Part shown: positions 29,745 to 32,678 of the stretch, piece after piece
How positions within the stretch are numbered: position 1 is the stretch's first letter
Layout: the number at the start of each line of letters is the position of its first letter
Assembly (NCBI GenBank): GCA_947380605.1
Contig: CANCRO010000025.1
Coordinates: 1-32,678 of the forward strand
Origin: Chitinophagaceae bacterium
Lineage (GTDB): Bacteria; Bacteroidota; Bacteroidia; Chitinophagales; Chitinophagaceae
Direction of reading: 5' to 3'
DNA length: 32,678 nucleotides
The notes under the pieces: model-generated
Databases searched by the model: none
The model's input: only the letters and a program-made list of their open reading frames with translations
What the model was told of the DNA's origin: nothing
Translations under genes and position numbers: made by a program

Positions 29745-31298
29745 ATGCTTACTCGATTCACAGATTCTTTATTTCAACTAATTCAATCGCTTGAGAAAGC
29801 TGAAAAAAGAAATTTTAAGCTCTTTATTAAAAGGAGTTCTGGGAATGAAAATTTAAAAATTGTCGAACTATTTGATGCACTTGACAAATTGCATGAATAT
29901 GACGAAGCTGTTTTGCTTAAAAAACTTTCTTCTATTCGAAAACCTCAGTTATCCAATATCAAAGTACATCTCTATAAACAATTGTTAGCAAGTTTAAGGA
30001 TTTTAAAAAGTGCTGATAGTATTGATATGCAGCTCAATGAACAATTAGATCATGCTAGAATTTTGTATAATAAAGGGTTGTATTTACAGAGTTTAAAAAT
30101 TTTAGAAAAATTAAAAGAAACAGCGAAGCATCATAATAAATTTAATTTTTTAACACAAGTGATTTCTTGGGAAAAGAAAATTGAATCATTGCATATTTCA
30201 AGAACCATGCAGGATAGGGGGGAGCTTTTGTCCTCAGAAGCGGTGGAGGTAAACGCTAGGGTGGATATGGTTGCTAGGCTCTCTAATTTAGCGCTTCGCT
30301 TATATAGTTGGTATATTAAAAATGGTCATGCACGAAATGAAAAAGATGAAATTGGGGTGAAAAAATTCTTGAAAAGTAATCTTCCTGTTAATGCACATTT
30401 GCAAACAGGATTTTACGAAAGAATGTATTTATATCAAAGTTACTGTTGGTATGCTTTTATTCGACAAGATTTTTTAATGTACTATCGGTATGCTCAAAAA
30501 TGGGTGGCTATTTTTCATGAAAACCCTTTAATGATTAGAGTTGAAACTGGCTACTATATTAAAGGGCTTCATAATTTACTCAATGCTCATTTTGATTTAA
30601 AGAATTATCAAAAATTTGAAATTGATCTGCAGCATTTTAAAAAATTCTCAAAGACTTCGGTAGCTGTTCAACATGATAATCATCGGATTCAGACTTTTGT
30701 ATACATCACTAGTGCCTTAATCAATCAACATATTATGTTGGGTACTTTCGCTCAGGGTTTAAAGGAAGTTCCATTGATTGAATCTAAATTGAAAGAGTAT
30801 TCATTATTTCTTGATAGCCATCGAATATTAGTTTTCAATTATAAGATAGCTTCTTTGTATTTTGGAAATGGGGACTTTGATATCTCTATAGATTATCTTC
30901 AGAAAATTATTTATGGTAACGATTCATTGCGAGATGATTTGCAATGCTATGCCCGCTTAATGCATTTGATGGCACATTATGAATTAGGGAATTTTGAAAT
31001 TATAGATTCCCTCATACGATCGGTTTATCGATTTATGTCAAAAAAAGAAAATTTAACTATAGTAGAGCAGGAAATGTTTAAATTTTTGAGGAATTCTTTT
31101 CAAGTACATCGCCAAAAATTAAAACCAGCCTTTCAGGAATTACTGGTCAGTTTGAAGAAATTAGAAAAAAATCGCTTTCAAACTCGATCTTTTGCCTATC
31201 TAGATATTATTTCTTGGATAGAAAGTAAATTGATGGATAAGCCGATGAGTCAGGTTATTAATGAAAAGTATCTTCATCATAAGAAAAGAATTTATTAA
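29745..31298 (+). CDS. Helical-repeat (TPR-like) protein next to a radical SAM gene
   Basis: The 517-residue soluble protein is predicted almost wholly helical. It begins 'LTRFTDSLFQLIQSLEKAEKR' and has repeat-like helix pairs, for example 'HARILYNKGLYLQSLKILEKLK' in two parts (HARILYNKGLYLQSL, KILEKLK), 'SLYFGNGDFDISIDYLQKII' near 368, and 'YARLMHLMAHYELGNFEIID' near 405. These resemble tetratricopeptide-type repeats, which mediate protein contacts. There is no signal peptide, membrane helix or catalytic motif. The radical SAM gene starts about 112 bases downstream on the same strand with its own promoter-like element. A partner or scaffold role is inference from position only; I cannot name the family. 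Confidence 0.7.
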   Translation: MLTRFTDSLFQLIQSLEKAEKRNFKLFIKRSSGNENLKIVELFDALDKLHEYDEAVLLKKLSSIRKPQLSNIKVHLYKQLLASLRILKSADSIDMQLNEQLDHARILYNKGLYLQSLKILEKLKETAKHHNKFNFLTQVISWEKKIESLHISRTMQDRGELLSSEAVEVNARVDMVARLSNLALRLYSWYIKNGHARNEKDEIGVKKFLKSNLPVNAHLQTGFYERMYLYQSYCWYAFIRQDFLMYYRYAQKWVAIFHENPLMIRVETGYYIKGLHNLLNAHFDLKNYQKFEIDLQHFKKFSKTSVAVQHDNHRIQTFVYITSALINQHIMLGTFAQGLKEVPLIESKLKEYSLFLDSHRILVFNYKIASLYFGNGDFDISIDYLQKIIYGNDSLRDDLQCYARLMHLMAHYELGNFEIIDSLIRSVYRFMSKKENLTIVEQEMFKFLRNSFQVHRQKLKPAFQELLVSLKKLEKNRFQTRSFAYLDIISWIESKLMDKPMSQVINEKYLHHKKRIY

Positions 31299-31393: not shown

Positions 31394-31401
31394 TATTTTT
31401 G
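31394..31401 (+). promoter_or_regulatory. Candidate -7 promoter element for the radical SAM gene
   Basis: TATTTTTG matches TAnnTTTG and sits in a 6-bp inverted repeat (AAGCAA at 31388-31393, TTGCTT at 31399-31404), which could be an operator half-site pair. In-frame TTG codons follow at 31411 and 31420. Confidence 0.45.
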
Positions 31402-31419: not shown

Positions 31420-32678
31420 TTGAGTGCAACTGTTTATTTTATAACACCTCCATTTACACAGCTCAATACTCCTTATCCGGGAACTGCTTATTTGAAAGGG
31501 TTTCTAAATACTAAGGGTATTTCTTCTTTTCAATCTGATCTTGGAATTGAAGTAATGTTAGCTATTTTCTCGAAAGAGGGATTGCTGCATTTATTTGATT
31601 GTATTCAAAACGGTGAACAAAGGGAGCGGTCAGAAAATGCAGTTAGAATAATAGCGCTTCAAAATGATTATATCCAATCTATTGATGCGGTAATTCTTTT
31701 TTTGCAAGGTAAAAATCCTACACTCGCTCACTTGATTACTAAAAGAAATTATCTCCCAGAAGCAAGTCGCTTTGCTCAATTGGATGATTTAGTTTGGGCC
31801 TTTGGTAATATGGGTGTTCAAGATCGTGCCAAGCACTTAGCTACCATGTATCTAGAAGATTTGTCAGACTTGATTAAAGAATGTATTGATCCTCATTTTG
31901 GATTTAGTAGATATGCAGAAAGATTAGGAAGGTCAGCCAATAGTTTTGATGAACTATATGAGGCTATGCAACAACCTAATAGTTACATTGATGAGGTGCT
32001 ATTAAAAATTTTAAAAACTAAGATTGAAAATGTAAATCCGCTATTGGTAGCTATTTCAGTTCCTTTTCCTGGAAATTTATATGCTTCCTTGAGATGTGCA
32101 CAATGGATTAAAAAACATTACCCTTCAATTAAAGTAGCGATGGGTGGAGGCTTTGCCAATACAGAATTAAGGTCCTTGTCTGATGTTCGTGTTTTCGAAT
32201 TTTATGATTTCATTACTTTAGATGATGGTGAAGCACCCATTGAAAATTTGATCCATTATCTACAAGAAAAAATTCCAGTCACCTCTTTGAAAAGGTGTTT
32301 TACAATGGTGGATGGAAAATTAATTTATATCAATAATACCGCTTGTACTGATTATAAGCAGGGACAGGTGGGTACTCCCGATTACAGTGATTTTTTATTG
32401 GATCAATATATATCTGCTATTGAGATCGTTAATCCTATGCATAGCTTATGGAGTAATGGAAGATGGAATAAGCTAACCATGGCGCATGGTTGCTATTGGG
32501 GTAAATGTACTTTTTGCGATATTTCGCTAGATTATATTAAATTATATGAACCGATCACCGCCTCTTTGCTTTGCGATCGTATAGAGGAAATGATAGCCCA
32601 GACTGGAGAAAATGGATTTCATTTTGTTGATGAAGCAGCTCCTCCAGCGATTATGCGCGCGCTTGCCTTGGAAATTAT
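31420..32678 (+). CDS. Radical SAM protein with cobalamin-binding-type domain (3' partial)
   Basis: The frame is open from a TAA at 31387 to the end of the window (419 codons from 31420) and has no in-frame ATG before residue 46. The N-terminal 'SATVYFITPPFTQLNTPYPG' needs a TTG start, at 31420 or 31411. Residues ~1-40 and ~200-300 look like the Rossmann-type cobalamin-binding domain of B12-radical SAM enzymes ('LLVAISVPFPGNLYASLRCA', then 'VAMGGGFANTE'), split by ~120 helical residues; no DxHxxG motif was seen. The 4Fe-4S motif is 'HGCYWGKCTFCD' with Cys at 358, 363 and 366, spacing CX4CX2C rather than CX3CX2C. 'GFHFVDEAAPP' follows. The reaction is unknown. Confidence 0.8.
   Translation, partial: MSATVYFITPPFTQLNTPYPGTAYLKGFLNTKGISSFQSDLGIEVMLAIFSKEGLLHLFDCIQNGEQRERSENAVRIIALQNDYIQSIDAVILFLQGKNPTLAHLITKRNYLPEASRFAQLDDLVWAFGNMGVQDRAKHLATMYLEDLSDLIKECIDPHFGFSRYAERLGRSANSFDELYEAMQQPNSYIDEVLLKILKTKIENVNPLLVAISVPFPGNLYASLRCAQWIKKHYPSIKVAMGGGFANTELRSLSDVRVFEFYDFITLDDGEAPIENLIHYLQEKIPVTSLKRCFTMVDGKLIYINNTACTDYKQGQVGTPDYSDFLLDQYISAIEIVNPMHSLWSNGRWNKLTMAHGCYWGKCTFCDISLDYIKLYEPITASLLCDRIEEMIAQTGENGFHFVDEAAPPAIMRALALEI

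Follow-up and report, generated by a model that had tools for sequence, protein, structure and literature searches.

We read the gene at the 3' end of the window (the whole 32,678-nucleotide stretch of Chitinophagaceae DNA analysed here) as a member of a large, uncharacterised and solitary family of class B, or cobalamin (Cbl)-dependent, radical SAM enzymes, most likely a methyltransferase, and we put the probability of this reading at roughly two in three. A sequence-only reading of the same DNA had called the product a B12-type radical SAM protein, and both the Pfam assignment and the predicted fold agree with it. The full protein matches the Pfam Radical_SAM model (PF04055) with 40.5 bits, above the gathering score of 29.5 (E = 4e-10), over residues 362–521 of the 740-residue reading described below. 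The Pfam B12-binding model (PF02310) remains sub-threshold at 15–16 bits against a cut-off of 32.1, and neither DxHxxG, noted as absent in the initial reading, nor any other cobalamin-ligand motif occurs in the full 733-residue protein; the case for cobalamin binding is therefore one of fold and family similarity.

The reading frame leaves the window at its 3' end, and residues 371–733 are encoded on contig C42 of the same genome (C42:1–1092). The first 149 bases of that contig (C42:1–149) match the last 149 of the window exactly, and the stretch is found nowhere else in the genome. A truncated gene is ruled out by this unique overlap across the contig break, and a DNA repeat at the break by the fact that the only two matches in the genome are the overlap itself. 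The joined gene encodes 733 residues from the TTG codon at 31420, or 740 if it is read from an upstream TTG at 31399, which sits within a candidate promoter box (Table 1). At the position of the downstream start codon, 71 of 80 homologues have TTG, eight have ATG and one has GTG. The sequence TAnnTTTG is the consensus of the −7 element in Bacteroidota promoters. Of the 80 homologues, 62 have this box in the 60 nt before the start codon, compared with 3.4% of random 60-mers from the same loci, and it mostly lies 23–30 nt from that codon. Because the box is found close upstream in the window and in most homologues, the radical SAM gene probably has its own promoter, from which transcription would begin only ∼10–20 nt ahead of the start codon. 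The pairing of a conserved, rare TTG start with so short a probable leader is unusual and without explanation.

Table 1. Features of the radical SAM gene in the window (positions are those of the window; residue numbers follow the 733-residue reading).
Feature	Position	Strand	Basis
Probable Bacteroidota −7 promoter box TATTTTTG	31394..31401	+	26 nt upstream of start codon
5' part (aa 1–419) of 733-aa cobalamin-type radical SAM protein	31420..32678	+	TTG start, contig overlap, Pfam
Rossmann (cobalamin-binding-type) domain part 1, aa 1–40, conserved loop PPFTQLNTPYP	31420..31539	+	AlphaFold, fold match to OxsB/TsrM/MgmA, conservation
Helical insertion of ∼165 aa (aa 41–205) in Rossmann domain	31540..32034	+	Secondary structure of model, conservation by region
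Rossmann domain part 2 and linker, aa 206–335; near-invariant PFPG, GGGxxNTELR, LDxGE	32035..32424	+	OxsB fold match, conservation
Start of radical SAM domain, aa 336–419; runs to ∼aa 600 on contig C42	32425..32678	+	PF04055, OxsB alignment
[4Fe-4S]/SAM cluster motif C358-X4-C363-X2-C366 within HGCYWGKCTFCD	32491..32517	+	Conserved in 138/138 loci

The cluster motif is encoded by the codons TGC TAT TGG GGT AAA TGT ACT TTT TGC, which read C358 Y W G K C363 T F C366 directly from the DNA, as the sequence-only reading had proposed. The spacing is thus CX4CX2C and not the canonical CX3CX2C, a form that is not required for membership of the superfamily since accepted spacing variants exist. CX4CX2C is found at the equivalent place in all 138 homologous loci (135 distinct proteins) and CX3CX2C in none; it is kept down to 43% identity inside the family and also in a plasmid-borne relative of 23% identity. 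Its presence in every locus rules out a sequencing error and shows that the spacing is not peculiar to this genome, and a frameshift at the motif, discounted from the outset, is excluded on the same grounds. The homologues form a separate subfamily not covered by any NCBIfam model.

The further suggestion that the spacing itself points to undescribed chemistry found no support in the literature. CX4CX2C has been reported, in a sentence also mentioning GenK and Sis14, for GenD1, a Cbl-radical SAM methyltransferase of experimentally demonstrated activity (PMC4340712), CX7CX2C has been described for the polytheonamide and bottromycin methyltransferases (PMC5682303), and exceptions to the usual spacing ‘are not unusual’ according to a review that gives CX3CX2C for TsrM (PMC8992657). 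The lower axial site of the cobalamin is occupied by Arg in TsrM, by Asn/water in OxsB and by Trp in TokK (PMC8992657), so that absence of DxHxxG is likewise normal in the class. Since the spacing, the absence of DxHxxG and the extended N-terminus each have precedent in the class, a new chemistry is not warranted by these traits; what stands of the earlier interpretation is the B12-type radical SAM assignment, the conserved spacing, the distinct subfamily and the absence of an adjacent substrate gene. What is special about the family is that CX4CX2C, the lack of DxHxxG and the extended N-terminus are fixed together in one large family without an assigned function.

Placement in a family of known function was sought, with a negative result. 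The nearest NCBIfam models are TIGR03975, for RiPP maturation radical SAM C-methyltransferases (89.4 bits over residues 171–556 of the 740-residue reading; cut-off 281.85), and TIGR04479, the model for PhpK-family radical SAM P-methyltransferases (83.7 bits over residues 205–555, E = 9e-24; cut-off 600), and matches to both are seen in 31 of 31 aligned members even though the window protein falls far below either cut-off. An hhalign comparison of the family with three true TIGR03975 proteins gave a probability of 98.7% (E = 3.8e-16) over 334 columns with the Cys motifs aligned, and the profile alignment sets GCYWG---KCTFC opposite GCWWGEKSQCHFC, the CX7CX2C motif of a true TIGR03975 protein. 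The two groups share the same domain order, in which a Rossmann B12-type domain with an extended N-terminal part precedes the radical SAM domain, as well as the motif start GC[YW]W and 22% identity over the aligned columns. They differ in that all three true members checked have CX7CX2C where the window protein has CX4CX2C, in the position of the GG strand (residues 168–170 in the three true members, residue 241 here, marking a longer insertion in the window protein), and in the absence of a linked peptide gene from the window family. The likeness to PhpK is tempered both by its distant cut-off and by the lack of a conserved neighbour here. GenD1, a gentamicin A C-methyltransferase, is comparable by its published description: it shares the Cbl-dependent radical SAM class and the CX4CX2C spacing (PMC4340712), whereas it comes from an antibiotic gene cluster of Micromonospora. 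Searches of the PDB with the single sequence or the profile returned no credible relative (no match at E ≤ 0.01), literature searches for this protein family found nothing, and no relative was found on viral contigs.

The predicted structure places the protein among Cbl-dependent radical SAM enzymes. We modelled the closest complete homologue (L030, 87% identical) with AlphaFold from an alignment of 75 sequences, obtaining a mean pLDDT of 78 and a pTM of 0.76; this second model supersedes a first one built from 31 sequences (pLDDT 66), the core of which was poor. It shows an interrupted Rossmann domain followed by a radical SAM barrel and then a C-terminal domain, with the cluster loop (residues 338–372) at pLDDT <50. 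MgmA, TsrM, CysS and TokK are methylases and OxsB is not, while AprD4 is a radical SAM 1,2-diol dehydratase that is not known to use cobalamin. In VIA-align comparisons, residues 2–607 of the second model match OxsB with Z 17.1 over 383 residues, and most of residues 1–607 match AprD4 (Z 16.6, 396 residues), MgmA (16.6), TsrM (15.9), CysS (14.7) and TokK (14.0); plain Foldseek ranks TsrM, OxsB and MgmA at the top. Both domains of TsrM, OxsB, MgmA, CysS and TokK are predicted to superpose (Z 14–17 over 356–405 residues), although their identity to the window family is 11–16%. A partial TIM barrel follows the cluster loop in the second model, as seen for example in the match to MqnE (Z 13.0 over residues 336–591). 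The N-terminal domain, sub-threshold in Pfam, is recognised by its predicted fold as a Rossmann domain of cobalamin-binding type, and in the first, poorer model residues 2–333 already lay on the cobalamin domain of OxsB (Z 17.3, 2.5 Å, 174 residues).

That the cobalamin-type domain contains a long helical insertion had been proposed from sequence, and the second model shows it as a run of helices between strands E36–40 and E209–213. Near-invariant positions make up 10% of the insertion as opposed to 40% of the radical SAM domain, and within the insertion they include F94-L-Q96 and Y165-A-E167. Lower conservation than the core combined with such fixed positions fits a substrate-facing role, and the insertion probably contributes to the surface that binds the substrate. 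The C-terminal domain (residues 626–733) matches no Pfam family. With a strand followed by a helix, it could be similar to a RiPP recognition element; it is missing from the Parabacteroides distasonis, Vitreoscilla, Ideonella and f43 genomes examined, and is thus dispensable for the family as a whole.

If the methyltransferase reading is correct, the likeliest mechanism is the one used by class B radical SAM methyltransferases. C358, C363 and C366 would ligate the [4Fe-4S] cluster to which SAM binds, and the front Rossmann domain would bind methylcobalamin base-off, without a His ligand from the protein. One SAM would methylate cob(I)alamin, and a second, bound to the CX4CX2C cluster, would be reductively cleaved to a 5'-deoxyadenosyl radical. 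This radical would abstract hydrogen from the substrate, leaving a substrate radical that would then receive the methyl group of methylcobalamin. The substrate may be a metabolite, a lipid or a protein produced by genes located elsewhere in the genome instead of a co-encoded peptide. The methyltransferase reading is favoured because both of the nearest curated models, TIGR03975 and PhpK, describe methyltransferases, because the fold matches to cobalamin enzymes are methylases except for OxsB, and because GenD1 shares the CX4CX2C spacing. We count against it that AprD4 (Z 16.6) and the non-methylase OxsB score as high as the methylases do.

These two matches underlie the two alternatives that survive best, both of which we consider unlikely. 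The protein could bind cobalamin without being a methyltransferase and act on a small molecule as OxsB does, by rearrangement, ring contraction or oxidation, as the standing of OxsB as the top or tied-top structural match would suggest; against this, the closest families by sequence are methyltransferases, and methylation is the commonest reaction of characterised Cbl-radical SAM enzymes (PMC11659888). With about the same low likelihood, the Rossmann domain could be of B12 type and yet not use cobalamin, as in AprD4. The extent of the AprD4 match, the sub-threshold PF02310 score and the lack of DxHxxG are in line with such a protein, but real Cbl-radical SAM enzymes usually lack DxHxxG as well (PMC8992657), and no other curated family comes as near in sequence as TIGR03975 and PhpK.

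The gene neighbourhood offers no partner. Across about 100 loci and down to open reading frames of 30 residues, no neighbour keeps a fixed place beyond close relatives and no precursor peptide or RiPP gene is conserved, in keeping with the earlier remark that no substrate gene is adjacent. The 517-residue gene upstream (29745–31298) was considered as a functional partner and rejected, as it stands beside the radical SAM gene only in close relatives (L030, L031 and L055). Neither a cobalamin riboswitch nor another known RNA was found in the window, and nine homologous loci gave tRNAs only. The host genome encodes MetH and a further B12-binding protein, both above cut-off, from which it follows that the host uses B12. 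MetH is nearly universal among close relatives, and its co-distribution with the radical SAM gene is hence uninformative.

One gene association deserves mention. In several members of a genome family that we label f23 (L141, L184–L187 and L189), a cysteine-synthase-like gene and a cysteate-fatty-acyltransferase-like gene lie close by on the same strand, and in L141 and L184 the radical SAM gene directly follows the pair with short gaps. Cysteate synthase and the acyltransferase (CFAT) take part in making sulfonolipids in Chryseobacterium gleum (PMC11211663), and the radical SAM enzyme could accordingly act on the long-chain base or a precursor during sulfonolipid (capnine) biosynthesis. We regard this as very unlikely: differing genes intervene between the pair and the radical SAM gene in f23 sister genomes, the linkage is absent elsewhere, and the pathway published for sulfobacin B has four steps, with no radical SAM enzyme named among them (PMC11211663). 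Co-distribution gives no support either: almost every genome in the class has the acyltransferase-like gene, whether it carries the radical SAM gene or not, and genomes such as G123, G127, G173, G324 and G402 have the radical SAM gene but no acyltransferase-like gene above the cut-off. The gene pair is a lead, not evidence. Just as improbable is a TIGR03975-type RiPP C-methyltransferase with an overlooked precursor peptide, for although TIGR03975 is the closest curated model and shares the GC[YW]W motif start and the extended N-terminal region, the roughly 100 neighbourhoods hold no conserved small open reading frame, the spacing is CX4CX2C rather than CX7CX2C, and the score is 89 bits against a cut-off of 282.

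The family for which we propose Cbl-dependent methyl transfer is conserved and solitary, and ranges over Bacteroidota and some Betaproteobacteria. A scan of reference genomes yielded at least 592 confirmed relatives. Among the matches listed, the full-length relatives examined are 68–87% identical to the window protein and come mostly from Chitinophagaceae, with some from Flavobacterium, Emticicia and others; mean identity among 81 family proteins is ∼73%. Of 395 genomes from the phylum, 71 contain a profile match, which is weak and distant in five. Plasmid records add proteins of 49–56% identity from Aureibacter, Parabacteroides distasonis, Vitreoscilla filiformis and Ideonella dechloratans, and a Sinorhizobium protein of 23%. 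The last of these lies on a conjugative plasmid of Sinorhizobium meliloti (L164:7956–10040), has the same CX4CX2C spacing (GCYWNRCTFCD), and adjoins flavoprotein and 2OG-Fe(II) oxygenase genes in what looks like a small-molecule pathway. A homologue of ∼73% identity comes from a record titled Azovibrio restrictus, a betaproteobacterium (L087), compared with 49% for other betaproteobacterial homologues; the record is probably a mis-binned or mislabelled MAG. Within the window genus (relatives G001–G035), roughly 60% of genomes, some of them incomplete, carry the gene. It is therefore often gained or lost within the genus despite its strong sequence conservation.

The family is conserved and its enzyme class is known, with precedent for each trait, yet it lacks a curated model, a linked gene and a proposed substrate. 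More tentatively, the family may represent a phylum-wide B12-dependent radical SAM methyltransferase, with the CX4CX2C loop as a fixed family trait, that modifies a core constituent of many Bacteroidota, such as a lipid, cofactor, RNA or protein, in a way so far undescribed; we hold this broader view to be possible though doubtful. The many homologues are available for studying how a CX4CX2C loop holds its cluster, and the substrate, once found, would assign a widespread yet unexplained use of vitamin B12.
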